From Actinomycetota bacterium (GTDB lineage: Bacteria; Actinomycetota; Humimicrobiia; Hakubellales; JAMDDV01): a stretch of DNA of 64,000 nt. The position numbers and the translations under genes were made by a program. The stretch spans positions 1-64,000 of the forward strand of contig JAMDDV010000025.1 of NCBI GenBank assembly GCA_023488455.1, written 5' to 3'. How positions within the stretch are numbered: the stretch's first letter is position 1; each line of letters opens with the position of its first letter. Shown piece after piece: positions 1 to 64,000 of this stretch. The notes under the pieces are model-generated. The model saw only the letters and a list, made by a program, of their open reading frames with translations. It made no database searches and had not been told where the DNA came from.

Positions 1-675
1 GCAATAAAAAGTGCAGACCTCCGTTTAGGTCTTACGATCCCTGAAATGTATAGAAACAGCATAATTTGTTCATTTTCTTCAGTAGTAATTGCAATTATTA
101 TTGCTTCTCTTTCATCATTTAGCATAAGTCACTTTCGTTTTAGGGGCAAAGAAATAATCTTTACTATTTTAATAGTAAGTTTTGTTATACCAGCTCAAGT
201 ATTGCTAATTCCACTATTCTTTGTTCTTAGACAGTTACATGTTTTAAACACCTATTTTGCAGTTATACTTTCCTATGTCAGTCTTCTTATACCGATAGCA
301 GTTTTAATATTAAGATCCTTTTTTGAAGAGATTCCTAAAGAGATAAAGGAATCGGCAAAAATAGATGGATGTACTGATTTTGGTATATTCTTGCGAATTG
401 TATTACCCCTTTCGAAACCAGCTATCGCTTCATGCATAATTCTCCTTTTTCTTGAGACATGGAACGAATTTATTTATGCATTAGTTTTTTTGCAGAATTC
501 AAAAATTCAAACAATCCCGGTTGTAATTGCAAAACTTGCAGGCGGTAAGTTTGCATTTCCGATAGGGACTTATGCAGCCTTAATAATGATAACTATTATA
601 CCAGTTATAATTATCTTTATGATTTTTCAAAGGTGGTTCATCTCAGGAATGACAATGGGAGCACTAAAGGGTTAG
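1..675 (+). CDS. Sugar ABC transporter permease, MalG/UgpE type (5' truncated by window)
   Basis: The reading frame is open from base 1, so the gene starts outside the window; the ATG at 46 is only the first internal Met. The product is a hydrophobic inner-membrane protein with about five visible membrane spans. It carries the EAA loop of binding-protein-dependent permeases (EIPKEIKESAKIDGCTDFG, then LPLSKPA), the contact with the ATPase subunit. The end (RWFISGMTMGALKG) is the usual C-terminus of CUT1 carbohydrate permeases. It lies 24 bases before an isomerase-like gene, so it is probably the last transport gene of a deoxysugar operon. The substrate cannot be read from the sequence. Confidence 0.9.
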   Translation, partial: AIKSADLRLGLTIPEMYRNSIICSFSSVVIAIIIASLSSFSISHFRFRGKEIIFTILIVSFVIPAQVLLIPLFFVLRQLHVLNTYFAVILSYVSLLIPIAVLILRSFFEEIPKEIKESAKIDGCTDFGIFLRIVLPLSKPAIASCIILLFLETWNEFIYALVFLQNSKIQTIPVVIAKLAGGKFAFPIGTYAALIMITIIPVIIIFMIFQRWFISGMTMGALKG

Positions 676-699
676 CAATAGAAGAAAGGAGCTGTAGAT

Positions 700-2028
700 A
701 TGTTAAAGCCAAAGGTTGGAGTGGCTGTTATGGCTTTCCCTGGCTTTAATCTTGAAGAAGATGATTGCCCAAAATATTTAAGTGAGCTTTCCGCATCTCT
801 GAGGGGGAAAGGATTGGATCTTGTTGTGTATGAGGAGCCTGTTATAAGCATATCGGGAGCCGAGAAAGCTGCTGATGCTTTTAATTCTGGAAAGGTTGAT
901 TGTTATGTATTATTGATTGGAACTTTTGTTCCTGATTTTATGGTCATGCCGATAGCAACAGGTGTAGCTAAGCCCGTCATCGTATGGGCAAACGATAGGA
1001 ACATATACAATGTTTCAATTACAGGGTCACAAAACGTTACTCCCACCCTCTGGGAAGCTGGTATTGAATTCAGGTTTGTTTATGGAGAACTGGAGGATCC
1101 AATTTTACTGGACGAGGTCTATAGGTTCACCAGGGCTTGTGCACTGAAGAATAAGCTTAAGGAGATAAAAGTTGGTTACTGGGGAGGCCACCCAAACATA
1201 ATGACTGTGCTTAATGTGGATGAAGTTGCTACCCGAATGATACTTGGGCCAACTCTGGTTAATTTTGGGAACGAGGATATATTCTTAAAGAGGGATCAGT
1301 TTTCAAAAGATGAGGTTAAAAGAGAATGGGGAAAGATCAAGGATGCTGCGGGGAACGTAAAATCGACTGAGGAAAATGGCCTGATAAGCGCAAAAACTCT
1401 TTTGTATATATTACAGAAAGTCAAGGAATATTCACTTGATGCTGTATCCATTAATTGCTTTCCGTATTTAAAGGGCCAGGTTTGCATCCCTGTTGCTAGA
1501 CTGAACGACTATGGGATCCCCTCTGCTTGCGAAGGGGATCTGAATTCAACAATATTAATGTACATGCTTTATCAACTTTCCGGAAAAGCAGTTGCAAATA
1601 GCGATCAGCTGAAGGTCTTGAATAAAGGAACTGATGAAAATTCTATGATTTTCTCGCATTGCGGTGCTGGAGCCCTAAGTCTTGCGACCTCAAAGGACAA
1701 GATTGTTATTCATGAAGATTATGAAACAGGCAAGGGGATAGGGGTTTACTTCCCTGAGACGATACCTGGTGAGGTCACGGTTTGCAATCTTGTTGGATTT
1801 GGTAATACTTACCGAATGTTCATAACAAAAGGAAAAGTCATAGAAACGGACATGATCTACGAGGGTAATCCAATGAATGTCCAGTTTGATTTTGATATAA
1901 GAGATATGCTGAAAAAGATCGCTGAGTGCGGGTTTGGTCATCACTGGAACCTTGCTTATGGAGATTTTATAGTGGAGTTAAGGGAGTTTTGTAATCTTGT
2001 TGGCATCAACTACATGGTCTATCCATGA
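700..2028 (+). CDS. L-fucose/L-arabinose isomerase-like protein
   Basis: 442 residues, related to the FucI/AraA ketol-isomerase fold but shorter than FucI (about 590). The C-terminal half shows the family landmarks: an EGD segment (SACEGDLNST) where Glu and Asp bind the metal, an SHCGAG motif, and a late GFGHHWNLAYGD with the expected His. The family interconverts aldoses and ketoses such as L-fucose/L-fuculose in the cytosol. The neighbours (class II aldolase and rhamnulokinase downstream) fit an isomerase-kinase-aldolase route for a 6-deoxyhexose. The exact substrate is inference; many family members of this length are uncharacterised. The ATG at 700 follows an AAGGAGCTG Shine-Dalgarno site. 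Confidence 0.75.
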   Translation: MLKPKVGVAVMAFPGFNLEEDDCPKYLSELSASLRGKGLDLVVYEEPVISISGAEKAADAFNSGKVDCYVLLIGTFVPDFMVMPIATGVAKPVIVWANDRNIYNVSITGSQNVTPTLWEAGIEFRFVYGELEDPILLDEVYRFTRACALKNKLKEIKVGYWGGHPNIMTVLNVDEVATRMILGPTLVNFGNEDIFLKRDQFSKDEVKREWGKIKDAAGNVKSTEENGLISAKTLLYILQKVKEYSLDAVSINCFPYLKGQVCIPVARLNDYGIPSACEGDLNSTILMYMLYQLSGKAVANSDQLKVLNKGTDENSMIFSHCGAGALSLATSKDKIVIHEDYETGKGIGVYFPETIPGEVTVCNLVGFGNTYRMFITKGKVIETDMIYEGNPMNVQFDFDIRDMLKKIAECGFGHHWNLAYGDFIVELREFCNLVGINYMVYP

Positions 2029-2047
2029 GGGAGAAGAGGAGGTCAAT

Positions 2048-3163
2048 GTGGAAGAACTAACACCGCTTGAAAGACTTGAGCGAACTTTAAGGGGAGAGGA
2101 GATTGATAGGATTGCTACTTATGACATTATTCATAACGTTGATTTAATTGAGCATTTGGCTGAAAAGAAGATAACATCCAAAAATGCGCTTGACTTATTG
2201 TGCAAGGCAGCAAAAAAGATTCTCGACTTGATTCGACACTTCGCAATACCTGATGATCTGGAAGTTAGGCTGGAGAAGGATGAAGACGGTTTTGTCTATA
2301 AGCGAGAATGGTGGACAAAGACTTTCGTTCACAGGCCATTTGAGACAGTGGATGATGCTGCAAGGATGGTTGAAAAGGACATAAAGAAGATCAGTGACTG
2401 CATTGATAAAAAGAAGGTCTGCTGGCAGGCCTTGCAACACCTTCAGTTATTTGGAGAGGACTGCGAATATTTAGAAGAAGTTGTGGAAAAGTTCAGAGTT
2501 GTGGCCGAAAAGCTCAACCCGACTCAAATGATAGTTCCTGAAAGTCTGCCTGGAATTTACATTGCAATTTCCCGCTATGATTTCAAGTGGTTTACCTATC
2601 TGCAGTACGACTACCCTGAACTTCTTGATAGTTACCTTCAGGCTCTCTGTGATTATGAAATTGCCAGGATTGAGAGCTTTGCAGGTTCTAATCTAACCAA
2701 GATAGCTTTTCTGTCTGAACCTACGGCTTTTAATGATAGATTAATCTGGCCCTTGGAATGGCTGAGAGAGCACGAATTTCCAATGACAAAGCGCGTTATT
2801 GATGCCTGGAAGAAATACGGATATTATGTAATTTACTTTTCTGATGGTCATAAATGGCCAGTGCTGGATGACGTTACCAGGATGGATATAGATGCAGTTG
2901 ATCCCTGTGAGCCACTTGCAGGTATGGATGTAAAAAGATTCAGGGACAAATATCCCGATATAACAATCTGTCAACCGATAGATTGCCAGTTCCTGCTTGC
3001 TTATGGCACTCACGAGGAAATTAAAGAAGCGACGATCAAGGCAATTAAGGCATCTGGAGGGAAAAGATTGATAATGGGGTCATCTTCTGAAATTCATCCT
3101 GAAATACCTGTTGCAAATGCAATGGCTATGTATAAAACAACAATTAATTATAAACTTAACTAA
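2048..3163 (+). CDS. Uroporphyrinogen decarboxylase (URO-D) family protein
   Basis: 371 residues. The frame is open further upstream, but GTG at 2048 sits 4-5 bases behind GAAGAGGAGGT and 20 bases after the previous stop, so I take it as the start. The N-terminus (LTPLERLERTLRGEEIDRIATYD) is the typical opening of URO-D/MtaA-like proteins, and the rest fits the single TIM barrel. Family members are either the heme enzyme HemE or methyltransferases acting on corrinoid or coenzyme carriers. No heme or corrinoid genes are nearby. It is the first of four divergent paralogues in this window, all inside sugar operons, so a role in sugar or sugar-acid metabolism is more likely than heme synthesis. 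Function unknown. Confidence 0.75.
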   Translation: MEELTPLERLERTLRGEEIDRIATYDIIHNVDLIEHLAEKKITSKNALDLLCKAAKKILDLIRHFAIPDDLEVRLEKDEDGFVYKREWWTKTFVHRPFETVDDAARMVEKDIKKISDCIDKKKVCWQALQHLQLFGEDCEYLEEVVEKFRVVAEKLNPTQMIVPESLPGIYIAISRYDFKWFTYLQYDYPELLDSYLQALCDYEIARIESFAGSNLTKIAFLSEPTAFNDRLIWPLEWLREHEFPMTKRVIDAWKKYGYYVIYFSDGHKWPVLDDVTRMDIDAVDPCEPLAGMDVKRFRDKYPDITICQPIDCQFLLAYGTHEEIKEATIKAIKASGGKRLIMGSSSEIHPEIPVANAMAMYKTTINYKLN

Positions 3164-3174
3164 AAGGCGGCTTT

Positions 3175-4086
3175 GTGGATAAAGAAGATAAGATTATTTG
3201 TCTACCAGAAGAAGAGATATTAAAACCTCGGGACATTATTCTCGAGCTTTCGCAGCTAATGCTGCAGAGGGGCCTCACAGATATGTCCGGAGGTAATATT
3301 GCGCTTAGGATTGGCAGCAAGGTTTACATGACAAGAAGATACAGCGGTGAAAGGTTTAGATGGAAACTTCGGCCCGATGATATTGTTCTCACAGATTTAT
3401 ACGGCAAGCCGCTTGAGGGAAATGAAACGCGCATTTCAAGAGAGGCAAAGTTACACTACATGATATTGCAGGAGTTCAACCAGGTAAACTGCTCAATTCA
3501 TGCGCATCCTCTGTATACGTTGCTGATTGCGGATTTGAACATTAAGCCGGAAGCTGTCTTTTATCCAGCCGAAGAATTCAAGCTTCAGGAGGTAGATATC
3601 ATTAATCCCGAAGTCAAGACGATGACGGATGAAGAGTACAACATTGTAATCGAGAATTTTAGGAAATATCAGGAGACTGGTAAGGCTCGGATAATGATAA
3701 TGCCGGGACATGGAGTAATCACCGCTGGCAGGGATCACAGTGAAGCCTTTTCTTTGCTTGATGTGCTGGAGATGAACTCCAGATTTCTCTTCTATCGCGA
3801 GATGGGCAAGACAAGCAAAGTTTTTAAATCGATACTCGATAATGTGCATAGAAGCGATGGTCATAAAATTTCAGAGAATATCTCAGTTGATTCCACTGGA
3901 CGCACTGGTAGTTATCCACAAGGCGGAGCGGGAATGAAAGCAGGGAGGAATGTGATCACCGCAGAGGATATACTAAACCTCCCAGACGGTATTACAAGCA
4001 TATCCGTTAGAAAGGACACGCTGGTTACGGATCAAGCAGAGATTATTGCCCAGGAACATAAGGTCAAGATTATCAGACTTGAATGA
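3175..4086 (+). CDS. Class II aldolase/adducin family protein with C-terminal extension
   Basis: 303 residues starting at GTG 3175 behind AAGGCGG. Residues 15-215 are a class II aldolase fold: catalytic Glu90 (SREAKLHY) and zinc ligands His109 and His111 (SIHAHPL) and His179 (MPGHGV). Such enzymes cleave L-fuculose- or L-rhamnulose-1-phosphate to dihydroxyacetone phosphate and lactaldehyde. A linker follows, then about 50 residues reading VITAEDILNLPDG...TLVTDQAEIIAQEHKVKI. This resembles the short tail of some EutQ-like and aldolase proteins and is absent from E. coli FucA. The stop overlaps the rhamnulokinase start (ATGA), so the two are translationally coupled. Probable deoxysugar-phosphate aldolase; the substrate is inferred from context. 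Confidence 0.8.
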   Translation: MDKEDKIICLPEEEILKPRDIILELSQLMLQRGLTDMSGGNIALRIGSKVYMTRRYSGERFRWKLRPDDIVLTDLYGKPLEGNETRISREAKLHYMILQEFNQVNCSIHAHPLYTLLIADLNIKPEAVFYPAEEFKLQEVDIINPEVKTMTDEEYNIVIENFRKYQETGKARIMIMPGHGVITAGRDHSEAFSLLDVLEMNSRFLFYREMGKTSKVFKSILDNVHRSDGHKISENISVDSTGRTGSYPQGGAGMKAGRNVITAEDILNLPDGITSISVRKDTLVTDQAEIIAQEHKVKIIRLE

Positions 4087-5570
4087 AATCAACGAAGAAA
4101 TATTTAGCGGTTGATTTTGGTGCAAGCAACGGAAGGGCGATAATAGGGAAATTTGATGGCTCAAAACTTTTTCTGGAAGAAATCCACAGGTTTGAGAATA
4201 GACCGGTATATGCTGGGGGTACTTTATACTGGGATTTGTTAAGACTTTTCTCAGAATTAAAAATCGGGGTTCAGCTAGCTGCCAAAAAATATTCGGATAC
4301 AACAAGTCTTGGGATAGATACATGGGGACTTGACTTTGGCCTACTAGACGAAGGTGGCACCCTATTATCAAACCCTGTTCATTATAGGGACAAAAGAACA
4401 AGCGGTATTTTAGATAAGGTTTTCGAGTTAGTCTCTGCTGAAGAGATATACCATAGAACGCAAGCTGTAATATGGGAACTCAACTCGCTTTATCAGATAT
4501 ATGCAATGAGGCTTTCCAGATCTCCAATACTGGGGGTCGCCAAGCACTTCCTTTTTATGGGTGATCTGTTTAATTACTTTCTTACAGGCAGCATTCTCTG
4601 TGAATATACAAATGCAACTGCATCTCAGATGTTGGACCAGCGGAATAAAGTTTGGGCCACTGATGTTCTAAAAGAATTGCAAATCCCGCAGAGCATCCTT
4701 CCTAAGGTCAGCATGCCTGGGACTTTTATCGGAAACTTGAATGAGAAGATTTGCATTGAATTGGATTGTCATAAGATTCCAGTTATATTATCTGCTTACG
4801 ATACCGCTTCAGAGATCGCTGCTATTCCTGTGACTAACAGTGTCGGCGATTGGGTTTATATTTGTTGTGGTACATGGACGATGATCGGTATAGGTATTAA
4901 TGACCCTATCGTTAGCAATGAAGCATTCTTAGCCGGTTTTGGAAACGAAGGTGGGGTAGAGCAGTATCACTTTCTCACGAACATCGTTGGGTTATGGATA
5001 ATCCAGCAGTGCAGGAAGAAGTGGATGGAGGGAAATGGCAAAAATTTATCCTGGGATGAGGTTGTTGATATGGCAAAAAAATCTGATGAGATCAATACCT
5101 TCATCAACGTGGACGACCCTGTTTTTAACCGTGAAATATTTGATATGCCCGCCGAAGTCATAGATTTTTCTAAAAGGACAGGTCAAAAAGTACCCCGAAC
5201 AGTTGGAGAAATTGCAAGATGTGTGTATGAAAGTCTGGTATTAAAATATGCTAAAACTATTAAGGATTTAAGCAGAATTACTGGGAAAGAGATCAAACTG
5301 ATACATCTGGTCGGAGGAGGGTCAAAAAATAGCCTGCTCTGTCAGTGGACCTCAAATGTCAGTGGTAGGCCTGTTATAGCAGGACCTACTGAAACCACAA
5401 TAAATGGCAACCTTCTGGTTCAGATGATTGCCTCTGGTGAAATTAACTCTGTAGGTGAGGGAAGAGAAATAATAAAGTATTCATCGAAACTTGAATATTT
5501 TGATCCGCAAGATCTTGAAAAATGGAATGAAAAATTAGATAAATACGAGCAGCTGTTCTTTGAAAGTTAA
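4083..5570 (+). CDS. rhaB: Rhamnulokinase (FGGY family)
   Basis: 495 residues, close to the 489 of E. coli RhaB. It has the N-terminal phosphate loop VDFGASNGRAIIGKF (residues 9-23), the RhaB-like GIDTWGLDFGLLDEGG and HYRDKRT segments, and a C-terminal ADP-binding block (HLVGGGSKNSLLCQW, then AGPTETTINGNLLVQ). It transfers phosphate from ATP to L-rhamnulose, or a related ketose, in the cytosol, giving the substrate for the upstream aldolase. It overlaps that aldolase by four bases. No gene follows for about 210 bases, so it probably ends the operon. Assignment to rhamnulokinase rather than another FGGY kinase rests on the GGGSKN/N-terminal pattern and neighbours. Confidence 0.85.
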   Translation: MKSTKKYLAVDFGASNGRAIIGKFDGSKLFLEEIHRFENRPVYAGGTLYWDLLRLFSELKIGVQLAAKKYSDTTSLGIDTWGLDFGLLDEGGTLLSNPVHYRDKRTSGILDKVFELVSAEEIYHRTQAVIWELNSLYQIYAMRLSRSPILGVAKHFLFMGDLFNYFLTGSILCEYTNATASQMLDQRNKVWATDVLKELQIPQSILPKVSMPGTFIGNLNEKICIELDCHKIPVILSAYDTASEIAAIPVTNSVGDWVYICCGTWTMIGIGINDPIVSNEAFLAGFGNEGGVEQYHFLTNIVGLWIIQQCRKKWMEGNGKNLSWDEVVDMAKKSDEINTFINVDDPVFNREIFDMPAEVIDFSKRTGQKVPRTVGEIARCVYESLVLKYAKTIKDLSRITGKEIKLIHLVGGGSKNSLLCQWTSNVSGRPVIAGPTETTINGNLLVQMIASGEINSVGEGREIIKYSSKLEYFDPQDLEKWNEKLDKYEQLFFES

Positions 5571-5694
5571 ACATATTCTTCGCATTTTACATAATAAAGG
5601 TTTTTTAGTAGCTACATCGATCCAAGGGAAGCAAACAAGCTTATCGATTACCAATCATCTGATTTAGCTTACCACGATTTGAGATTTTAATTTG

Positions 5695-5735
5695 TTGACA
5701 TGTAATCGTACATGTGCTATCCTGTACGTACATGA
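5695..5735 (+). promoter_or_regulatory. Sigma-70 type promoter with overlapping TGTACGTACA operator
   Basis: TTGACA (5695-5700), a 17-base spacer, and TATCCT (5718-5723) with an extended -10 TGC just before it form a near-consensus promoter 61 bases upstream of the radical SAM gene. A perfect palindrome TGTACGTACA (5723-5732) overlaps the -10 and start region, and GTACATGT (5708-5715) lies within the spacer. This placement suggests repression. A related palindrome stands before the GntR/LacI-type regulator gene of this cluster, making that protein the likely binder (inference). Confidence 0.7.
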
Positions 5736-5783
5736 TTAACACTATTGACGCTATGGGTAGTCTAGTCAAGTTGGGGGTAGGTA

Positions 5784-7256
5784 ATGATGAAAGAATCGGC
5801 GTGGATCAATGTTGCTGAGGAACTTTATGCTTTTAACGTTGAGTCCACTGGTTTTTTACTTCATATACCAACTTCGCGGGTATTTCGAACAGACGACATA
5901 ACAAAGAACATAGTAAATCTTTTAACACGTAGAGCTAGCGAAGAAGTTGTAATTCAGAAGTTAAAATACAAATATAAAGAAGAAAAAATTCAAGAAACAA
6001 TCCAAGAACTTAGAGATGCGGAATTAATTGGGGCTGACCACTCTATTGATGCAGAGATTGCACAAAAAGCCTGGCAGGATAAATTTAAGGTAAATTACCT
6101 GATGCTGATTCTAGTGGGAGACTGTAACCTCAGATGCAGCTACTGTTTTGCTGATCAAGGTCATTTTGGCAATGCTCCGGGTTTTATGTCTTGGGAGGTC
6201 GCAAAAGCGTGCGTCGATTTCACTTTTAACGAACCTGGTAACGGGCTATATAATATCTGCTTTTTTGGAGGAGAGCCGCTACTCAATTTTCCTTTGATAA
6301 AAAAGACTGTGCTTTATGCTAGGAAACAGTTTTCACGCTTAAGTAAGAACATCGAATTTAGCGTCACCACTAACGGAACACTTCTTACGGATGAAATATG
6401 CGAATTTCTTAATGAGAACCAATTCGGTGTCCTTATCAGCATTGATGGTCCCCAACACATTCATGACAGATGGCGAAGATTTAAGAGCGGAAGGGGGTCT
6501 CATACGACAGTAGCGGGTAACATACAACGCATGCTATCGTGCTGGGATATCAAGGGGAGGAAGTCAAACCTGATGGGCAGAGCTACGGTCACATCCTGGG
6601 AGCCTGATCTTACAAAGATTATTCCTTATCTTGAGGGTTTGGGGGTTCCGTTAGTTGCTGCTGAGCCGGTTTCTATTTCACCTCTGGAAGAAAGCAGTTA
6701 TGCTCTCATGGGTGACTCTTTAGAACAATATAAGCTGAGCTTCGAAAAGTTAGTGAAATTTTACAGAAACAAAATCTTAGTGGGGAAGCCGTGTGCTTTT
6801 CATGTGCTTAGACAAAGCCTAAAAAATATCTTTGAGGGACAGCAAAAGTACTATCATTGCGGTGCTGGAAGGCACTTTAAAACTGTTGCTCCCAATGGTG
6901 ATATCTATCCTTGCCAGCGGTTAACCGGATATAAGGATTATCGCATGGGTTCGGTATTCACTGGCATAGATGATTCTGCGGTAAAAGAATTTCTGCCCAA
7001 ATTAGTCACTGAAAAAGAAACCTGTCGCTCTTGCTGGGCGAGATTCTTCTGTGGCGGTGGATGTGCATCTGAACAGATCCTAACCAAAGGTGTTGATGCT
7101 CATCCTCTTAAATGGAGTTGTGAACTCTTTAAGCATAACCTTAAGTGGAATATCTGGCTCTTTGATGAAATTCAAAATGCAGATCCAGAGCTATTACCTA
7201 AGATTGTGGGAGATGTTTCTTTAAATGAACAACGAGAACGGACTCAAGCGGTTTGA
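5784..7256 (+). CDS. Radical SAM/SPASM peptide maturase, SCIFF-maturase-like
   Basis: 490 residues. Residues 12-85 look like a PqqD-type winged-helix leader-recognition domain (FNVESTGFLLHIPTSRVFR, then a helical repeat). The radical SAM core follows with CxxxCxxC at C114, C118, C121 (CNLRCSYCFADQG) and GGEP at 163-166. The SPASM domain carries C359, C377, C414, C417, C423, C427 and C446 (CGAGRHF, CRSCWARFFCGGGC) for two auxiliary [4Fe-4S] clusters. The layout matches maturases that install thioether links in ribosomal peptides (CteB and relatives; QhpD is a more distant possibility). A cysteine-containing 45-residue ORF follows 75 bases downstream and is the probable substrate. The promoter just upstream suggests carbohydrate-linked control. 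Confidence 0.88.
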   Translation: MMKESAWINVAEELYAFNVESTGFLLHIPTSRVFRTDDITKNIVNLLTRRASEEVVIQKLKYKYKEEKIQETIQELRDAELIGADHSIDAEIAQKAWQDKFKVNYLMLILVGDCNLRCSYCFADQGHFGNAPGFMSWEVAKACVDFTFNEPGNGLYNICFFGGEPLLNFPLIKKTVLYARKQFSRLSKNIEFSVTTNGTLLTDEICEFLNENQFGVLISIDGPQHIHDRWRRFKSGRGSHTTVAGNIQRMLSCWDIKGRKSNLMGRATVTSWEPDLTKIIPYLEGLGVPLVAAEPVSISPLEESSYALMGDSLEQYKLSFEKLVKFYRNKILVGKPCAFHVLRQSLKNIFEGQQKYYHCGAGRHFKTVAPNGDIYPCQRLTGYKDYRMGSVFTGIDDSAVKEFLPKLVTEKETCRSCWARFFCGGGCASEQILTKGVDAHPLKWSCELFKHNLKWNIWLFDEIQNADPELLPKIVGDVSLNEQRERTQAV

Positions 7257-7331
7257 GGTTTAATCGGGGGATATTTTTTAGAATTAAATCTTGGAGCGGT
7301 CTCCGCAAATACTCTAAAGGGAGGTGGTTTT

Positions 7332-7469
7332 ATGACGCACATCAAGCAGATTAATGCAGCAAAAACAGATCAATCTTGCGATGACGTTGCTTTGGATTAT
7401 TGCTATGTTCCTTGTGATGGCACAGTAGTGTGCCCACCCTACATTGGGGCTATTGGGCCAGTTCGCTAA
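7332..7469 (+). CDS. Putative RiPP precursor peptide, four Cys, SCIFF-like leader
   Basis: A 45-codon frame (ATG 7332, tandem TAA stops from 7467) preceded by a very strong AAAGGGAGGTGG ribosome-binding site, so high translation is expected. The N-terminus MTHIKQIN resembles the start of SCIFF precursors (commonly MKHIKTLN, from memory). The core holds Cys16, Cys24, Cys28 and Cys34 and ends in the Pro/Gly-rich PPYIGAIGPVR. SCIFF cores have six closely spaced Cys; this one has four in the spacing C-x7-C-x3-C-x5-C, with Asp and Tyr around them. Its position right after a leader-binding radical SAM/SPASM enzyme makes a thioether-modified peptide the natural reading. No protease or dedicated exporter gene is adjacent; the next genes are a sugar importer. 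Role unknown. Confidence 0.75.
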   Translation: MTHIKQINAAKTDQSCDDVALDYCYVPCDGTVVCPPYIGAIGPVR

Positions 7470-9180: not shown

Positions 9181-10047
9181 ATGAAAAGATTTTTTGAAAA
9201 AAACTTCTATATTCTTCTCACAATACCAGCGACAGTTATGATAGCTTTCATAAGCATTTACCCAGCATTTTATTCATTTGCCCTAAGTTTGAATAAGTTG
9301 ACAAATGCAGTAGGAAAGTTTGAATATGTCGGTCTAAAAAACTACGTTCGTTTATTTAGGAATCCAGATTTCTTATCATCTGGGATAGTTTCTTTAAAAT
9401 ACATTTCCATCTCGCTTGTCGGCACCATATTTTTGGGACTAATCTTAGCCCTTCTTCTGAATAAGAAGGTGAAGTTTAAAGGCACATTTATGAGCATTTT
9501 CCTTATACCGTGGATTATATCGGAAGTTGTATCAGGAAATATGTTCAGATGGCTTTTCGACGGTTCTTTTAGCATTATAAACGAGATGTTAAGTGAAGCA
9601 GGGTTACCAGCTTTAAAGCTTCTAAATAATCCAGATGGAGCGCTTGCGATAGTTAACACTGCGACAATATGGCGTAATCTTGGTTTTGCAATGATTATAT
9701 TCATTGCTGCTTTGCAAACGATTGATCCCAATGTAATTGAAGCTGCTAAAGTTGATGGGGCAGGAGGATGGCAGCAGTTTAGATTTATAACTTTTCCCCT
9801 AATTCGTTACCATTTTATGGTCGTATTGATTTTACTTACATTGTTCTTCATTAACCAGGTCACAACAGTTTTTGTTATTACACGCGGTGGTCCAGTGGAT
9901 TCTACTCTTGTGCCTGGAATGTTTCTATACAGGCTTGCCTTTAATTATTTTGATCTTGGTCAAGCATCGGCTTTCTCAGTATTTTTATTTGTAGTCAACA
10001 TAATCGTTATCTCGTTTTACATAAGATTATTAATGCGTCCGCAATAA
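9181..10047 (+). CDS. Sugar ABC transporter permease, MalF/UgpA type
   Basis: 288 residues, an integral membrane protein with six predicted spans: first at about 10-30, then four or five from about residue 75 on. The EAA loop is clear (TIDPNVIEAAKVDGAGGWQQFRFITFPLI), the docking site for the ATPase. The N-terminal PATVMIAFISIYPAFYSFALSL is typical of CUT1 family permeases. It pairs with the next gene to form the channel for the upstream binding protein. No ATPase gene is in this operon, so a shared MsmK/UgpC-type ATPase encoded elsewhere probably energises it. Confidence 0.9.
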   Translation: MKRFFEKNFYILLTIPATVMIAFISIYPAFYSFALSLNKLTNAVGKFEYVGLKNYVRLFRNPDFLSSGIVSLKYISISLVGTIFLGLILALLLNKKVKFKGTFMSIFLIPWIISEVVSGNMFRWLFDGSFSIINEMLSEAGLPALKLLNNPDGALAIVNTATIWRNLGFAMIIFIAALQTIDPNVIEAAKVDGAGGWQQFRFITFPLIRYHFMVVLILLTLFFINQVTTVFVITRGGPVDSTLVPGMFLYRLAFNYFDLGQASAFSVFLFVVNIIVISFYIRLLMRPQ

Positions 10048-10897: not shown

Positions 10898-12052
10898 ATG
10901 GCTAAATACAAAATCAACATTAAGTACTCCAGTGAGGTTATGAAAAAAAATAAGGTAAGGCTTGAATCAGCTAAGAATTTTTTAAGAAGCGACAGAGTAC
11001 CTGTACTTTTTGGAATATTTGAAAGATATATCCTGAAAGAAAGAGGAGTAGGTTATCTCGAATTTTTTAGTGATTCAAGAGCCATGCTTCATCATGAGAT
11101 CTTAAATCAGAAATGGGCAATTGAGAATATCCCCGATGATCGTTGTCAGGAAAACATAATATGGGTGTATCCATGGTGGGAAAATGTTGTAAATGCCAAT
11201 TCTTTAGGTGCTGAAGTTGTATGGTTTGATGATCAGCCTCCTTACGTAAAACCGCTTTTTGGTTCTGTAGAAGAAGTTACGGATTTTAGAGTATCCCCTT
11301 CTGATAGCGGTCTTTGGGGAGAAAGAAAGAAATATTTCTTTGAATGGAGAGAGTTAGTCAAGGATTATGAGGTTTATTTTAATGGCGAACCTGGAAAGGT
11401 TGAAATTCAGCCTCTAGATATAGGGGGCGAGAGCTCATTTTGCACTGCAGTAAATTTAGCTGGACAGAGTTTTTATGCATGGTTAAGTCTCTATCCCAAT
11501 GAATGCAGAGACTTTCTGTCTAAAATAACGAATGCTCTGGTCAATGCCGGGCTATTCTTCCGAGAAATAGATCCAGGACCTCGGTCATCATTCATTATAT
11601 CTGAGGATTTCGCTGAAATCATATCTCCAGATATGTTCAGGAGGTTTTGTGTTCCATATGACAACAGATTGTTCGATGCTCTTGGCAAGGATTTAAAAGA
11701 CGGTCGCAGTATGCATATGTGTGGTGACACTACTCACCTTTTAGACATTCTTGTTAACGAGGAAAAAATAACAAGTTTCATTGGGTTTGGTAGTTCTGTC
11801 AATCCCTATATCGTGGCAGAAAAGATGGGCGGGAAGGTTTACCTGTGGGGCAATCTGAGTTGCACAAGTCTCCTCAATGGACCAGAGAAAATAATATACG
11901 AAGAAGCACTGAACTGCATACGAGCTTTTTCTCGTTTTGGCGGTTTTTGCCTGGGTGATGGCTTCAATGTAGCACCCGGAACGCCTTTAGAAAACCTGGA
12001 GACTGCGGTTTTAGCGGCAAAGGAATTTGGAAGTGTGCCTGAGGAATTATGA
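10898..12052 (+). CDS. URO-D family protein
   Basis: 384 residues, second URO-D family paralogue. It has the DRVPVLFGIFERYILKERG segment near the N-terminus and a C-terminal half typical of the family: SEDFAEIISPDMFRRFCVPYDNRLFDAL, then MHMCGDTTHLLDILV, and GGFCLGDGFNVAPGTPLENLETAVLAAKEFG. The His-x-Cys-Gly motif and the closing PGTPLENLETAV are shared with corrinoid methyltransferase-like members, where His and Cys bind zinc. It begins directly after the permease stop and overlaps the mannosidase start by four bases (ATGA), so it belongs to the glycan operon. Reaction unknown. Confidence 0.75.
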   Translation: MAKYKINIKYSSEVMKKNKVRLESAKNFLRSDRVPVLFGIFERYILKERGVGYLEFFSDSRAMLHHEILNQKWAIENIPDDRCQENIIWVYPWWENVVNANSLGAEVVWFDDQPPYVKPLFGSVEEVTDFRVSPSDSGLWGERKKYFFEWRELVKDYEVYFNGEPGKVEIQPLDIGGESSFCTAVNLAGQSFYAWLSLYPNECRDFLSKITNALVNAGLFFREIDPGPRSSFIISEDFAEIISPDMFRRFCVPYDNRLFDALGKDLKDGRSMHMCGDTTHLLDILVNEEKITSFIGFGSSVNPYIVAEKMGGKVYLWGNLSCTSLLNGPEKIIYEEALNCIRAFSRFGGFCLGDGFNVAPGTPLENLETAVLAAKEFGSVPEEL

Positions 12053-14763: not shown

Positions 14764-14784
14764 ATGCTACTGAGGAGTTTCTCG

Positions 14785-15990
14785 ATGGCCAAAAATATGA
14801 CATCCAGAGAGAGGGTGATGAGGGCATACCGCAGGGAGATCCCTGATAGAGTACCCGTTTGTCCTGATATTTCAAATATGATCCCCTGCAAACTGACAGG
14901 AAAGCCTTTCTGGGAGATCTATCTATATAACAGTCCTGCCCTGGGTGATGCCTATATGAGGGCGGTGGATTACTTTGGCATAGACGGTTGGTATATCTAT
15001 GGCTATCTTTACGGAGGGAATTCCAGGTTTTACTGCAGGGGACATGAAGATAAACTGGTCATCATCGATGGACTTCAGATAAATAGGAGGATTTTAAGGA
15101 TAGATATCGTCGGGATGGATTCTGAAAGCATAACCGTGAAATACACAATTGATACTCCTAAAGGTAAACTTGCCTGGAGAATTATTTATCCTGCATCTAA
15201 CCCACCATGGTGGTCAGAAAAGATGATCAAGGATCTGGATCAAGACTGGCCGTGTTTTGCGTACGTACTGGGCGAGGACTGGGACTATAATCCGGGGATC
15301 AAGGTGGGGTTTGATAAAATAGAGGACAGGGCAGTTTACGCTCTGTGCATTGACCTGCCTGTTGACTGGTGGTTCTTCTTGCGACAAGGAGATCAGCAGC
15401 AGTTGATCTTTGATCTGATGGATCGGGAGAAGGATATGCTGGAGATATTTGCTTTCTACCAGAGGTACGCTGAAGCAAAGGTGAGGGCTTTTATTGAAGC
15501 TGGCCCTGATGAGATAGTTTTCCAGGGCTCAGCATCATCGCTAAGCGTCATCTCACCGCAGATCTACCGAAAGTTTAACCTTCCTTTCATTAAGGTCATA
15601 ACCGCATTGTGTAGGGAGGCAGGGGTCATTTCACATCAGCACACATGTGGCAGGTCAAATGAGATAATTGAGATCAACTATCATGAAACAGAGTTGGACG
15701 TCATGGAACCTCTGGAGCCGCCTCCTGGTGGAGATGTTGACCTGGCCGAAGCCAAGAGAATATATGGGGATAAGTTCTGCCTTAAGGGAGGTGTCAATAC
15801 CTTTGATGTTATGAGGACTTATAAGCCAGAAGAGGTGGGTGATGCAGTAAGAAAATGTATCAACGACGCTGCTACCAATGGCGGTTACATACTTTCCACG
15901 GGTGACCAATGTCCTTTGGATACCCCTGAAGAAAATATACTTAAGCTGGTTGAAGTAGCCCGGGCCTATGGTAGATATGACTTCAGGTAG
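14785..15990 (+). CDS. URO-D family protein
   Basis: 401 residues, third URO-D paralogue. ATG 14785 lies seven bases after GAGGAG and is preferred to the ATG at 14764, which has no good site. The N-terminus (MTSRERVMRAYRREIPDRVPVCPDI) is the family opening. The C-terminal half has SHQHTCGRSNEIIEINYHETELDVMEPLEPPPGGDVDLAEAKRIYG, KGGVNTF, and the closing STGDQCPLDTPEENILKLVEVARAYG, with the HTCG motif that binds zinc in methyltransferase-like members. It is cotranscribed with the mannosidase and ends the operon; the regulator gene converges on it 23 bases later. Substrate unknown. Confidence 0.75.
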   Translation: MAKNMTSRERVMRAYRREIPDRVPVCPDISNMIPCKLTGKPFWEIYLYNSPALGDAYMRAVDYFGIDGWYIYGYLYGGNSRFYCRGHEDKLVIIDGLQINRRILRIDIVGMDSESITVKYTIDTPKGKLAWRIIYPASNPPWWSEKMIKDLDQDWPCFAYVLGEDWDYNPGIKVGFDKIEDRAVYALCIDLPVDWWFFLRQGDQQQLIFDLMDREKDMLEIFAFYQRYAEAKVRAFIEAGPDEIVFQGSASSLSVISPQIYRKFNLPFIKVITALCREAGVISHQHTCGRSNEIIEINYHETELDVMEPLEPPPGGDVDLAEAKRIYGDKFCLKGGVNTFDVMRTYKPEEVGDAVRKCINDAATNGGYILSTGDQCPLDTPEENILKLVEVARAYGRYDFR

Positions 15991-16013: not shown

Positions 16014-17168
16014 CTAATTTGCAACCTGCCTGGCTTCGTGTGTTGGTACTGTAGATCTGCGCACGATTAGCTTTGTGGAAATCACGATCTGCCTGTTTCC
16101 TTTTTCTCTTCCCTCAACCTTGTCGATCAAGAGCTCGACCGCTTGTGCCCCAATGGCGTATTTGTCCTGAGCTACGGTTGTCAGTGGGGTTTCTAGGTGG
16201 GAGACGATATCGATGTCGTCAAAGCCTACCAGAGCCAGGTCATCGGGTATTTTCAAGCCAACCAGTGAAGCAGCCTCCACGACAGCAAGTGCCACCAGGT
16301 CATTAATAGCAAAGATTGCAGATGGTCTTTCTTTATTTTTCAGGAACTCCACTATTACCTCGACATCGTGCTGACTGTTTCCTCTGGCCGTGCCGAAGAA
16401 CTCCAGCTCGCTGGCGGATGTCTTGAGCTTATCACACACCAGAGATTGGTCGAATGGCAGCCGATAGTCCATAAGGGCTCTCTTGTACCCATCGACCCTG
16501 TCCCTCACACTCGTGGTCTGCAGTGATGATCTGGTTACCATACCTATTCTGTTGTGTCCCAGTTTGATAAGATGCTCCATTGCCTGATAGGCTCCGCCAA
16601 AGTTATCTGATACCACGTAACTGACGTCTATGTTCGGTATATATCGATCAATCAAGACGAAATTGAACCTCTGCTCCACCAGGCTGATCGTGATCTCATC
16701 AAGCGGGTAATTATCAGGAAGAAATATTATCAACCCATCGACCTTTTTGGATAGAAGCTGACGCACTGACCTCTGGTGCTGTTCATATTTGTTATCCGTG
16801 ATGGAGAGCATGAGTTGATAGCCTTTGGTACGCGTTGTGCTTTCGATGCTGAGTGTTATTAAAGTGAGAAAGGAGTCTCGCAGGTAGGGCTGAATCAAAC
16901 CTATCACCCCACTTCTGGGCGGGAACTTCTGCTTAAATGGATCTGATGATACATAGGTTCCTTTTCCTGATACCCTGAGTAGAATCCCCTCATGCACAAG
17001 TTCTAGTATAGCCTGTCGGACCGTGGATCTGCTGATGTTGAACTCCCGAGCTATCTCAAACTCGGATGGGATTGCAGAATTTGGCTTGAAAGTGCCATCT
17101 CTAACCTTATCCCTGAAGTACTGAGCCAGTTGTACGTATAGGGGGAACGGACTGTCTTTAGTTATCAT
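16014..17168 (-). CDS. GntR/LacI hybrid transcriptional regulator (AraR-like architecture)
   Basis: 384 residues. Residues 1-75 are a GntR winged helix (SPFPLYVQLAQYFRDKVRDG, SEFEIAREFNISRSTVRQAILELVHEGILLRVSGKGTYVSSD). The rest is a LacI-type periplasmic-binding-protein fold (GVIGLIQPYL..., KVDGLIIFLPDN, HLIKLGHNRIGMV, GFDDIDIVSHLETPLTTVAQD) that senses a sugar. This two-part design is that of AraR. It lies convergent to the mannosidase operon, and a TGTATGTACA-type palindrome stands 52 bases upstream of its start. A similar site overlaps the radical SAM promoter, so it probably represses itself and that promoter, with release by a sugar. The inducer is unknown. Confidence 0.85.
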   Translation of the reverse strand: MITKDSPFPLYVQLAQYFRDKVRDGTFKPNSAIPSEFEIAREFNISRSTVRQAILELVHEGILLRVSGKGTYVSSDPFKQKFPPRSGVIGLIQPYLRDSFLTLITLSIESTTRTKGYQLMLSITDNKYEQHQRSVRQLLSKKVDGLIIFLPDNYPLDEITISLVEQRFNFVLIDRYIPNIDVSYVVSDNFGGAYQAMEHLIKLGHNRIGMVTRSSLQTTSVRDRVDGYKRALMDYRLPFDQSLVCDKLKTSASELEFFGTARGNSQHDVEVIVEFLKNKERPSAIFAINDLVALAVVEAASLVGLKIPDDLALVGFDDIDIVSHLETPLTTVAQDKYAIGAQAVELLIDKVEGREKGNRQIVISTKLIVRRSTVPTHEARQVAN

Positions 17169-17219: not shown

Positions 17220-17232
17220 ACATGTATGTACA
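17220..17232. promoter_or_regulatory. Candidate operator ACATGTATGTACA before the regulator gene
   Basis: This near-palindrome shares the TGTAYGTACA core with the perfect palindrome at 5723-5732 and lies upstream of the GntR/LacI-type gene, as expected for autoregulation. A partial copy, GTGTACGT, occurs at 17283-17290. The match is based on two sites only. Confidence 0.45.
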
Positions 17233-17368
17233 GCCAAATTTATTTATTCATTGGTATTGAGTTGCAAATTGGTCATTAAAAAGTGTACGTTTTAAATTTT
17301 TGATGTAGAACATTAAATTGACTGGATTTAAAGTACGGTGACTTCTGATAAAATCTTTATTATACTGT

Positions 17369-44626: not shown

Positions 44627-45970
44627 ATGCTAAACCCAATGTATGATCCAGTTGTTTTTAATAATGAAATAGAAAGCTTAGATTCAGGAAAGTATTTCAT
44701 AGTCACTTTCTACTTTGAAAATGAAAGGGAACCAGGGGAGTTCATAGATCATCTTGCAATGATTCAGAGAGCTGGTCTTTTAGGCTCAACTGGTGCATGG
44801 GTAAAACTGGAAGATGAAACTGATGATGTAAGAGAGAGGCTTTGTTTCAAAATTGTTGGTTATTACCAGTTACCATCAGTCGAAAATGTAAAAAAAGCGG
44901 TTGTTCAGATTGCCTACCCGATTGAAGCATATAATTCAGATAATTTAAATATTCCTACTCTTTTAATGGCTCCTGTTGGGAATATTCTAATGTATCCAGG
45001 AAAGTGCCTTGTTCTGGGAATTAGTTTCCCGAAATTACTTGTTGAGCAGTTTAAAGGGCCAAAATTTGGCATTAATGGTATAAGAAATCTAGTTAATGTT
45101 CAGGATAGGCCGCTTCTTATGGTTGTATCGAAACCTAAAATTGGAATGAGCCCTAAAGAAACTGCCCAGCAGGTATATGAATGCGCAATAGCAGGTGCAG
45201 ATCTATTTAAAGATGATGAAGGAATGACTGAAACCTGGAACTCAAGATTCGATGAGAGGCTCAATACAGTGGTTGAAGCCTTACATAAAGCTGAAAGTAA
45301 GACAGGAAAAAAAACCTTGTACTTTATAACAGTTACAGATGAAGTTGATAGGGTTATGGGAAAGGCAGCTAGAGCAATGAAAAGAGGGGCAACTGGATTC
45401 TTGCTCTGCTGCTCTACTGGTTGGTCACAACTCAGGGTAATGGCTGAAAGTCATGAAATTGATGTTCCTATCCTTTATCATTTGACCACTTGCTCTGTCT
45501 ATTTAGAGCGAATGAGTTTTACTGTCTTTAACAAGATCTCGAGATTGTGTGGAGCTGATATTTTAATTATCCCACCTTTCTGGGGAACCCTACCAATTAC
45601 TACTCTTGAAGACGAGTTGAGATCTGTTCAAGTCCTAAAATCAAAATTTTTCCAAATCAAGCCAAGCTTTCCAATGGTTGGTGGAGGAGTCTATCTGGGG
45701 ATGGTTCCATCTATTTGGAATCAGTATGGGATAGATGTTATTTTTGAGGCTGGTGGAGGTATTTTTGGACACCCAAGCGGAATGCAGGCAGGATGTGAGG
45801 CTTTTCACCAGGCTTTCAATGCAATGAAAGAGGGAAAATCTTTAGAACAAGCCTCAAAGGAAAAGGAAAACACATACTTATTAGAAGCTCTTCAGAAATG
45901 GGGTGAATTAGATAGACCAACTATGCCGAATGATGGTCTGTTTAATAAATGGGGCTCTAAAAGGCTTTAA
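44627..45970 (+). CDS. RuBisCO-like protein (form IV)
   Basis: 447 residues, length of a RuBisCO large subunit. Recognisable are VSKPKIG (Lys169 and Lys171), the metal triad Lys195, Asp197, Glu198 in ADLFKDDEG, and the phosphate site EAGGGIFGHPSGMQAG. But the loop-6 lysine motif (GKLEG) is missing: the matching place reads PPFWGTLPITTLEDE, so it cannot carboxylate ribulose bisphosphate. Form IV proteins act as enolases, isomerases or sugar-acid phosphate decarboxylases (in methionine salvage and apionate routes). With a sugar importer, kinase and isomerases around it, a sugar-acid phosphate reaction is most likely. No methionine-salvage genes are near. Confidence 0.88.
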   Translation: MLNPMYDPVVFNNEIESLDSGKYFIVTFYFENEREPGEFIDHLAMIQRAGLLGSTGAWVKLEDETDDVRERLCFKIVGYYQLPSVENVKKAVVQIAYPIEAYNSDNLNIPTLLMAPVGNILMYPGKCLVLGISFPKLLVEQFKGPKFGINGIRNLVNVQDRPLLMVVSKPKIGMSPKETAQQVYECAIAGADLFKDDEGMTETWNSRFDERLNTVVEALHKAESKTGKKTLYFITVTDEVDRVMGKAARAMKRGATGFLLCCSTGWSQLRVMAESHEIDVPILYHLTTCSVYLERMSFTVFNKISRLCGADILIIPPFWGTLPITTLEDELRSVQVLKSKFFQIKPSFPMVGGGVYLGMVPSIWNQYGIDVIFEAGGGIFGHPSGMQAGCEAFHQAFNAMKEGKSLEQASKEKENTYLLEALQKWGELDRPTMPNDGLFNKWGSKRL

Positions 45971-48307: not shown

Positions 48308-48332
48308 TTGGATTTAAAAATTGAGGAGAGTA

Positions 48333-49586
48333 ATGAAATCAAGAGAAAGAGTCATTACGGCTCTGCAGCATAAAGAGCCGGATAGAGTACCACGGGATAT
48401 GGATGGAGGTGTAGCTAGTGGCATCACTGGCATAGCATATAACAGATTGGTACGTCGGCTTGGAATTGATGAAGAAGCTCATATTTATGATTTGTGGCAA
48501 CAGTTAGCTAAGCCCAGCATCACTATACTGAAAGCTTTGGAAATTGATTGTGTTCGAGTCGGGCAGCCCATAAACGAGTGGAAGAGGGGTAAATTACCCG
48601 ATGGTTCCCCATGTTGGGTCCCCAGATCTTGGAATCCGGAGGAGATGCCCAATGGGTCAAAAGTACAAAAATATAAAGGTGAAGTAATCGCAAGAATGCC
48701 TAAGAATGGTTATTGGTTCGAGCCTGTTTATGCGTTGGACTCCTCTAAGGCTCCGCTGGTTGATGCCACAATAGATGATTTGGCTGATTTTACCTGGATG
48801 GTACCTTTCTCTTTTGATCGAGTTCCAGATATGCAGCAATTGAACCAAATTGTGGATGGTTTACAGGGGGAAGTAAAGTGGTGGTATAAGGAAACTGATT
48901 TTGCTTTGGTGGGTGCGTTTGGTGCTAGTATATTCGAGACTGCTCAAAGGTTAAGGGGTATGGAACAGTTCTTCATTGATCTTATAAAAAATCGTAAATT
49001 TGTTGAGGCGTTGTTAGATAGACTCGTCGAAACAAATATAGAGTATGCAAAAAGATATTTAGAGGCAGTGCAAGATTGTGTCCAGGTCATAATTGTTGGC
49101 GGAGAGGATATTGGTACCCAAACAGGTTTACAGATTAACCCTGAGATATACCGGGAAGTGGTAAAACCGCATCAGAAGAATTTATGGCAATTCCTAAAAC
49201 GAAATTCAAGTGCATATTTACAAATACATACATGTGGTAACGTAGAAGAAATAATTGATGATCTCATTGATGCTGGCATTGATATTCTTAACCCAGTGCA
49301 GATATCTGCTGGTATGGACCCTATAAAGTTAAAAGAGCGGTTTGGGACTCGGATTACGTTCTGGGGAGGTGGTGTTGATACACAACACACTCTGCCCTTT
49401 GCTTCTCAGGAAGAGGTAAAAAAAGAGGTTAGGGAAAGAATCGCAGCACTCGCACCGGGAGGCGGTTATGTATTTGCCCCTGAGCAGAATGTGCAACCTG
49501 AAGTACCTGTAGAAAATGTTCTTGCCATGTACCAAGCTGCTGAGATATATGGTCAATATCCGATAGAGAAGCATAATCTCTCATGA
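48333..49586 (+). CDS. URO-D family protein
   Basis: 417 residues, fourth URO-D paralogue. ATG 48333 lies four bases after GAGGAG; TTG 48321 begins that site and is unlikely. It opens MKSRERVITALQHKEPDRVPRDMDG and has the C-terminal set LQIHTCGNVEEIIDDLIDAGIDILNPVQISAGMDPIKLKERFGTRITFWGGGVDTQHTLPF and GGGYVFAPEQNVQPEVPVENVLAMYQAAEIYG. The HTCG motif is that of methyltransferase-like family members. It sits between sugar-binding protein and isomerase genes, so it acts in the same sugar pathway. Reaction unknown. Confidence 0.78.
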   Translation: MKSRERVITALQHKEPDRVPRDMDGGVASGITGIAYNRLVRRLGIDEEAHIYDLWQQLAKPSITILKALEIDCVRVGQPINEWKRGKLPDGSPCWVPRSWNPEEMPNGSKVQKYKGEVIARMPKNGYWFEPVYALDSSKAPLVDATIDDLADFTWMVPFSFDRVPDMQQLNQIVDGLQGEVKWWYKETDFALVGAFGASIFETAQRLRGMEQFFIDLIKNRKFVEALLDRLVETNIEYAKRYLEAVQDCVQVIIVGGEDIGTQTGLQINPEIYREVVKPHQKNLWQFLKRNSSAYLQIHTCGNVEEIIDDLIDAGIDILNPVQISAGMDPIKLKERFGTRITFWGGGVDTQHTLPFASQEEVKKEVRERIAALAPGGGYVFAPEQNVQPEVPVENVLAMYQAAEIYGQYPIEKHNLS

Positions 49587-61787: not shown

Positions 61788-61953
61788 AAAAATTGAATAA
61801 AATTATACATAATATTTTCCCAGGCAATCTGCTATTTTTCAGTTGATGTGATCACAGCGCCATATGCCACATTTTTTATTCAAAAAAGTTGAATTAGGTT
61901 TCGACATAAACTAATATCTTTTGAATCATTTTTTACGCAAGAAGGAGAGGTTT

Positions 61954-63348: not shown

Positions 63349-64000
63349 AAGAAGAGCTTGGTGGTCTGTGTCAGAAGACGCTGGATATCTGCAGGGAATT
63401 AAAAGCCGATCAGGCCGAGGTTTATGGGGAGAAATCCGATGGGGTCAGGATCAGGGTATATAAGTCAGAGGTCGAATCGCTGACCTCGCAGAGTTCCTAC
63501 GGTATAGCAGTAAGGGTGTTTATTGGTGGTGCACTGGGCTTTGCCTTTACAACAGGTCTTGACGATTTATCGCTTCGAAACTGTGTTGAGAAGGCAGCTC
63601 AAAACGCAAGGTCAACGAATTCTGATGATAATAACGGCTTGCCTGAGCCCAGCTCATATGGGCAGCTCGATATTTATAGAAGTGCACTTGTGGATATGCC
63701 GATTAAGGACAAGGTAAAGCTCACGATCGATATGGAAAGAGCTGCCTATGCTTACGATAAACGCATTTCAGAGATTGATACAGCATTGTATTCTGATGGT
63801 GCCAGCGAGATTTTTCTCGTCAACTCGCTCGGTTTCACAGGTAATTACAGGTTCACTGAGTGTTATATTTACTTAAGCTGTATTGCCAGAGAGGATGGCA
63901 ATGTTTCAACATCGTATTCTTACGGGATTGGGCGCGAGCCAGGCTATTTTGACGTTGATAAGCTGGTGGCAAAGGCAGCCTCAAGGGCAGTATCCCTGCT
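63345..64000 (+). CDS. tldE: PmbA/TldE-type protein (3' truncated by window)
   Basis: TTG 63345 overlaps the tldD stop, and the frame is open to the window end (218 codons). It reads KEELGGLCQKTLDICRELKADQAEVYGEKSDGVRIRVYKSEVESLTSQSSYGIAVRVFIGGALGFAFTTGLDD, matching the N-terminal half of TldE/PmbA, with no metal motif in this part, as expected. It forms the partner of TldD. The rest lies beyond base 64000. Confidence 0.88.
   Translation, partial: MKEELGGLCQKTLDICRELKADQAEVYGEKSDGVRIRVYKSEVESLTSQSSYGIAVRVFIGGALGFAFTTGLDDLSLRNCVEKAAQNARSTNSDDNNGLPEPSSYGQLDIYRSALVDMPIKDKVKLTIDMERAAYAYDKRISEIDTALYSDGASEIFLVNSLGFTGNYRFTECYIYLSCIAREDGNVSTSYSYGIGREPGYFDVDKLVAKAASRAVSL

Follow-up and report, generated by a model that had tools for sequence, protein, structure and literature searches.

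The 64,000-nucleotide window analysed here (positions 1 to 64,000 of contig JAMDDV010000025.1 from an Actinomycetota bacterium, GCA_023488455.1) carries a gene for a radical SAM/SPASM maturase followed by a gene for a 45-residue cysteine-containing peptide, which we read as the maturase and precursor of a ribosomally synthesized and post-translationally modified peptide (RiPP) of the ranthipeptide kind, with a probability of about 0.68. As to the precursor and the enzyme the RiPP reading is well supported; that the bond formed is a non-alpha thioether is an analogy to which we give about two chances in three. Judged on its sequence, the pair is genuine but rare, a new branch within a known modified-peptide family, because a distant relative, the contig L001, keeps the same pair; it is a new family inside the ranthipeptide/QhpD enzyme group and not a new kind of system. 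The initial annotation, made from the window alone, had proposed a likely new RiPP, and the maturase profiles and the gene neighbourhood in L001 support this. The features of the pair are as follows.

5784 to 7256, + strand: radical SAM/SPASM peptide maturase, 490 aa (open reading frame, NCBIfam and Pfam profiles, fold, alignments)
5823 to 6017, + strand: RiPP recognition element (RRE)-like, leader-binding domain, maturase residues 14-78 (model E-E-E-H-H-H; alignment to 5wgg from residue 12)
6123 to 6146, + strand: CxxxCxxC radical SAM cluster motif, C114/C118/C121 (alignment)
6858 to 7121, + strand: SPASM region with seven invariant cysteines, C359-C446 (alignment)
7319 to 7327, + strand: ribosome-binding site GGGAGGTGG of the peptide gene (sequence)
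7332 to 7469, + strand: 45-aa precursor peptide gene (open reading frame, conservation)
7332 to 7355, + strand: leader motif MTHIKQIN (comparison with QhpC, SCIFF and L001 leaders)
7377 to 7466, + strand: core with Cys16, Cys24, Cys28 and Cys34 and the conserved CDGTVVCPP (alignment)

The peptide reading frame starts 75 bases past the maturase stop codon, and GGGAGGTGG ends four bases ahead of its ATG, as expected from the initial annotation, which had described a 45-codon gene with a strong ribosome-binding site behind the maturase. The peptide runs from MTHIKQIN to PPYIGAIGPVR, and the four cysteines and the C-terminal end given there are read in the frame. No Pfam or NCBIfam model, TIGR03973 included, matched the peptide at E<=1, and the best PHROG was at chance level (E 0.26).

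Conservation of the pair in relatives had been set as a test of the proposal, and L001, an 8,269-base contig of an Actinomycetota metagenome-assembled genome (MAG), carries a maturase 49% identical to that of the window together with a peptide having the same leader. Two maturases stand in tandem there (1223-2698 and 2804-4270), followed by a 51-aa peptide (4303-4458; MIHMQQIN...PWDGTIVVLPPPPHLPPG) with its own GGAGGTG ribosome-binding site, which is already in NCBI as a hypothetical protein. Next come an ABC exporter-type protein (4595-6412; ABC_membrane and ABC_tran) and a uroporphyrinogen decarboxylase (URO-D)-like gene; an upstream reading frame is glycosidase-like only under the cut-offs (31.1 versus 50 bits; 16.4 versus 27). 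A search of 5.8 billion proteins found a single relative of the peptide, P0001 (42 aa, 88% identity over 89% of the query), whose companion maturase was not located (28,209-base contig). The window, P0001 and L001 peptides align with 15 invariant columns, including M1, H3, Q6, I7 and N8 of the leader and D29, G30, T31, V33, P35 and P36 of the core; searching with a profile of all three returned just P0001 and the L001 peptide and thus no additional member.

For the maturase, 2,981 of the 7,996 candidates scored matched at E<=1e-10, and the best of the 120 matches listed, the window's own entry aside, have 65, 51, 49 and 45% identity. In a genome scan whose candidates were drawn via two short peptide patterns, only L001 among the best 80 of 282 relatives holds a maturase of at least 40% identity (best segment), followed by L019 (37% over part of its length) and L010 (33% over most). 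One of the 40 genomes of L001's class has a maturase match at E<=1e-60. In a phylum sample, 3 of 396 genomes match at E<=1e-90 (G001, G002 and G338), the single close one being G001, the genome to which L001 belongs. Six maturases, all distant, came from viral contigs, and the 280 plasmid records that match are all under 60% identity (28-34% for the ten listed).

The leader-recognition domain, CxxxCxxC motif and SPASM cysteines attributed to the maturase by the initial annotation are all present. C114, C118 and C121, together with cysteines 359, 377, 414, 417, 423, 427 and 446, are unchanged in all 50 aligned sequences, and residues 14-78 form three strands and three helices in the predicted model. 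The RRE fold match is carried by CteB, TigE and a few partial rows of the structure alignment, because at least one-fifth of the rows span model residues 93-482 only. Pfam Radical_SAM (62.8 bits) and Fer4_12 (40.9) score over their cut-offs and SPASM narrowly under (19.8 versus 21.5). Of the 75 NCBIfam models matched, the enzyme falls below the cut-offs of all 25 best shown: the nearest is QhpD TIGR03906 (310 bits versus 453), followed by the SCIFF maturase model TIGR03974 (282.9 versus 425), a nif11-like maturase model (278 versus 518.7) and PapB NF047865 (267 versus 340), with partial matches to cyclophane and sactipeptide maturases scoring far lower. The top full-length fold and profile matches are CteB, the best solved structure, and QhpD.

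In a tree of 72 chosen rows built by a quick method (supports from the Shimodaira-Hasegawa-like approximate likelihood ratio test, SH-aLRT), the window enzyme groups with P0003-P0005 (98; clade A), which joins clade B (P0006-P0009 and the other L001 maturase; 99), with P0011 next (99). SCIFF (8 rows labelled by name or TIGR03973 locus), QhpD (7 rows labelled by adjacent QhpC or database name) and PapB-like enzymes (3 Paenibacillus loci, labels assigned in this analysis) form separate groups with supports of 100, 98 and 99 and with unlabelled rows inside; the link of the window clade to the QhpD side is weak (87). By its sequence the window system is therefore neither SCIFF nor QhpD. Clades A and B are both present in L001, in tandem ahead of a single peptide, and the window has clade A only; P0003 and P0006, listed on contigs of equal size (13,046), hint at a possible second A/B pair.

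Grouping with QhpD is named as a clue to ranthipeptides in an excerpt of PMC11002830, and the window maturase groups with the QhpD/CteB/PapB radical SAM-SPASM enzymes. The modelled RRE fold and the matching leader on the adjacent peptide agree with this class, the binding itself being predicted, as do core cysteines with Asp/Glu/Thr/Asn acceptors nearby, by composition only. In CteB the leader is bound by the RRE, and Cys32 becomes linked to a Thr given as Thr37 or Thr34, in the part of PMC8326336 consulted, which describes the products of CteB and QhpD as non-alpha thioethers. In QhpC, QhpD makes three Cys-to-Asp/Glu thioethers and needs a 28-residue leader, according to an extract of PMC7876137. 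PapB joins Cys to Asp where the two are arranged as Cys-Xn-Asp, n being 0-6, and a leader Asn is proposed as necessary for RRE binding in that system (PMC9413430, in excerpt).

On this model, the N-terminal RRE would bind the leader MTHIKQIN, whose Asn8 is shared. The radical SAM cluster would generate a 5'-deoxyadenosyl radical that takes a hydrogen from the beta or gamma carbon of an acceptor side chain, most likely that of the invariant Asp29 of DGT and perhaps that of Asp17, Asp18, Asp22 or Thr31, and a core cysteine held at the SPASM cluster would be joined to it as a thioether. The core offers the spacings C16-D17/D18/D22, C24-D29 and C28-D29 (composition only) and has no CX3D motif; by analogy, Cys24 or Cys28 might be linked to Asp29, or Cys16 to Asp17, Asp18 or Asp22. 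Export of the product is probable, perhaps as a signal or an envelope-associated peptide: in L001 the gene after that of the peptide encodes an ABC exporter, though the window search revealed none.

Several observations weigh against this reading. Only three peptides are known; P0001 has Ser where the window peptide has Cys16, and the three cysteines of the L001 peptide lie 13-16 residues ahead of the DGT Asp, none adjoining it. No Asp, Glu, Thr or Asn lies downstream of Cys34, and PapB is described as refusing an Asp placed ahead of Cys (PMC9413430, in excerpt). L001 has two maturases versus one in the window. No ABC_membrane exporter was found among the 51 window proteins run on Pfam (limits from E 1 to 1e-8; small reading frames in part), as the initial annotation had remarked, but this holds locally only, given the exporter in L001. 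In agreement with that annotation, no protease lies beside the pair; the sole peptidase noticed, of TldD/PmbA type (61921-63348, + strand), is 54 kb away. The maturase is absent (E<=1e-10) from all six regions examined around relatives of a neighbouring sugar kinase (one of them, L118, stops about 100 bases beyond the kinase), and the operator-like pattern described below was written after comparing its two sites. DGT[VI]V, the constant motif, may supply the acceptor for cysteines whose positions are flexible, or it may point to other chemistry.

Such other chemistry, that is, a RiPP pair making a sactionine (alpha-carbon) bond or a C-C or Tyr/Trp crosslink at DGT/PPY, seems to us unlikely. 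It would account for the alignment, in which only one Cys column is invariant in the three peptides as against D29, G30, T31 and the PP pair, and the motif has a Tyr close by in the window and a Trp next to it in L001. Cyclophane and sactipeptide maturases are also among the partial NCBIfam matches, but these models score far lower, and the best full-length fold and profile matches, CteB and QhpD, make non-alpha thioethers (PMC8326336, in the part consulted).

We consider it less probable still that the peptide is a cross-linked small subunit or cofactor carrier of a sugar-cluster enzyme, QhpC-like and not secreted. The leader (MNHMKPMN in QhpC), the maturase-then-substrate order, the SPASM Cys spacing and the nearest profile all match qhpD-qhpC of quinohemoprotein amine dehydrogenase (QHNDH), the clade lies beside QhpD in the tree, weakly (SH-aLRT 87), and the pair has sugar-catabolic genes on one side and sugar-uptake genes on the other. 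The QhpD score, however, is 310 against a cut-off of 453, and QhpC has about 105 aa versus 45, with an unrelated core. No partner enzyme was identified, and no QHNDH subunit was found among the 51 window proteins, small reading frames having been run only in part. The ABC exporter directly after the L001 peptide also speaks for secretion, although export through an ABC transporter is described for QhpC as well (PMC7876137, in extract).

A divergent SCIFF system (CteA/CteB, thermocellin; TIGR03973/TIGR03974) is very improbable. The initial annotation had called the leader SCIFF-like, and MTHIKQIN is indeed 5/8 identical to the SCIFF leader MKHIKTLN, but it is also 4/8 identical to MNHMKPMN of QhpC, so the likeness is not SCIFF-specific. 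Leaders of QhpC at seven Pseudomonas/Thauera loci are MNHMKPMN, MKHMKAMN or near them; in a positive control, TIGR03973 matched SCIFF peptides in 7 of 8 genomes searched, six with leaders of MKHIKTLN or near it (the seventh was lost by a filter), and the window leader is compatible with both sets. The length of 45 residues and CteB as top solved structure also fit SCIFF. Against it, and in line with the non-SCIFF call of the initial annotation, TIGR03973 did not match the peptide at E<=1, the new peptides have 4 or 3 cysteines versus six in about 45 residues, the maturase scores 283 bits against a cut-off of 425, SCIFF maturases are a separate clade (SH-aLRT 100), and the pair is unlike SCIFF in its setting, a sugar cluster. 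Profile, Cys count and tree tests thus contradict a SCIFF assignment.

That the 45-codon frame is a chance reading frame after an orphan maturase is scarcely credible: the frame is short and only three relatives are known, but it is conserved in P0001 and recurs after the 49%-identical L001 maturase with the same leader and a ribosome-binding site, and the strict leader motif occurs in zero unrelated frames. This pattern, ^M.H[ILMV][KQR].[ILMV]N, was applied to 1.3 Mb of fetched loci and to the window, where it matched 14 of 11,500 frames that begin with ATG and encode 30-130 aa. All 14 are known or inferred precursors: seven QhpC and four SCIFF peptides, the window peptide and that of L001, which counts twice because L087 is the same locus. 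It passes over some true SCIFF peptides (Thr in place of Asn) and both peptides of L100 (MKHMRLIS and MKHMLPLN, adjoining a maturase), a locus that was added for its maturase once the strict pattern had been run. A relaxed pattern matched 25 of 11,560 frames, 18 of them precursor-like and 7 unrelated. Both patterns were built after the leaders had been seen, the relaxed one after L100 too, and such systems are over-represented among the fetched loci; the counts therefore gauge specificity and are not blind predictions.

Within the ranthipeptide reading, PapA/PapB (freyrasin) resembles the window pair in its enzyme group, leader Asn (PMC9413430, in excerpt) and Cys-Xn-Asp candidates, but PapA has repeated CX3D/E motifs where the window peptide has no CX3D, and the PapB group is separate in the tree. 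The NxxcA-type streptococcal ranthipeptide likewise combines a small peptide, a radical SAM enzyme and a non-alpha thioether (predicted for the window), but differs in its Cys-Asn link, whose acceptor lies ahead of the Cys; the comparison is by description only (PMC8326336, in part).

The pair represents an additional precursor family, with a maturase clade distinct in the tree from the SCIFF, QhpD and PapB groups, and the common leader suggests how QhpC, SCIFF and the new precursors are read by related maturases. Because its DGT motif is constant and its cysteine positions shift, the pair offers a small system of two genes in which to test what governs the choice of acceptor when non-alpha thioethers form. 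Its location beside sugar-use genes hints at a metabolic, not antibiotic, role for such peptides. In a clostridium, disruption of a ranthipeptide locus altered sporulation and agr gene expression (PMC8102284, in excerpt).

Possible control elements of the pair are the following.

5695 to 5723, + strand: sigma-70-like promoter TTGACA-N17-TATCCT ahead of the maturase (10/12 matches; weak by itself)
5722 to 5733, no strand assigned: palindromic operator-like site CTGTACGTACAT, overlapping the -10 (pattern comparison)
17222 to 17233, + strand: ATGTATGTACAG site, 54 bases upstream of the regulator start codon (pattern comparison)
16014 to 17168, - strand: regulator with GntR helix-turn-helix and LacI-type sugar-binding domains, candidate controller of the pair (PF00392 and PF13377)

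Sigma-70-like sites are no commoner in the region than by chance (7 found versus 6.0 expected in shuffles). The reverse strand of CTGTACGTACAT is one base different from ATGTATGTACAG, and a pattern built from the two has exactly these two places in the window; with up to two mismatches it has 11 (5722 on both strands) versus 5.8 expected, a number reached in 4 of 100 shuffles. The near-identical site at the regulator and at the maturase promoter suggests, at the level of sequence, that the regulator may act on its own gene and on the pair, whose expression would then probably be tied to sugar supply. AraR-type regulators have the same build as this regulator and a similar operator; an AraR-operator pattern, TTGTACGTACAA, shows no excess in the window (19 occurrences versus 20.0 expected), so that the pattern built from the two local sites was the only one to stand out. 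The initial annotation had placed the pair under a regulated promoter at the head of an operon: it has its own, weak, promoter-like site, but sugar genes precede it on the same strand.

These upstream genes (46-5570) encode sugar-permease-like, fucose-isomerase-like, URO-D-like, class II aldolase and FGGY kinase proteins. Downstream lie genes for an extracellular solute-binding protein and two permeases, then for a GH38 mannosidase between two URO-D-like proteins, and beyond these, on the opposite strand, the GntR/LacI-type regulator. Relatives of the kinase occur in 28 of the 40 genomes of L001's class (45 matches listed), yet 0 of 6 kinase regions hold the maturase; the pair is thus probably not a fixed part of the isomerase-kinase-aldolase cassette and looks like an addition to it.

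A bolder reading, which we hold only tentatively, is that of a sugar-induced system in which two paralogous maturases (clades A and B) would act on one precursor with DGT[VI]V-PP, not the cysteines, as functional centre, the ranthipeptide being a sugar-linked signal or a protein-bound cofactor of carbohydrate metabolism and not an antibiotic. A and B would then be kept together in L001, and perhaps on the P0003/P0006 contig, with the window reduced to one.

TldD/PmbA pairs process some RiPP leaders, but are widespread; the peptidase at 61921-63348 is a candidate leader peptidase, though 54 kb off. It is followed by the apparent start of a partner gene leaving the window (61921-64000, + strand). 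Four URO-D-like proteins are encoded in the window (2042-3160, 10898-12049, 14764-15987 and 48321-49583), in or beside sugar-use genes; a link between them and the pair is weak: G001 has 14 such matches in 1.9 Mb, which by our own estimate gives a chance of roughly 4% that one is nearby. At 44627-45967, amid sugar kinase, isomerase and ribose/galactose-isomerase genes, lies a RuBisCO-large-chain-family protein, perhaps a RuBisCO-like or sugar-catabolic form.

Other precursor-like peptides were seen in the fetched loci. In L100, another phylum-sample genome, two adjacent peptides with many Cys-Xn-Asp motifs follow the maturase (865-1279, - strand). A groundwater Actinomycetota MAG encodes, directly after a QhpD-like maturase, a 490-aa protein with dozens of D/P-D-x-C-like repeats (L003:5430-6902, + strand), which from its sequence looks like a long multi-crosslink substrate. 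In Eisenbacteria L023, L026 and L044, small peptides with Cys/Asp-containing cores lie downstream of the maturase (about 9490-9900), with leaders including MNHLRLAN, MKHMKLAN and MKHLKVAN, and in Oceanirhabdus three related MKQINKSNIT.. Cys/Asp peptides follow a PapB-side maturase (L029:9522-10729, + strand).
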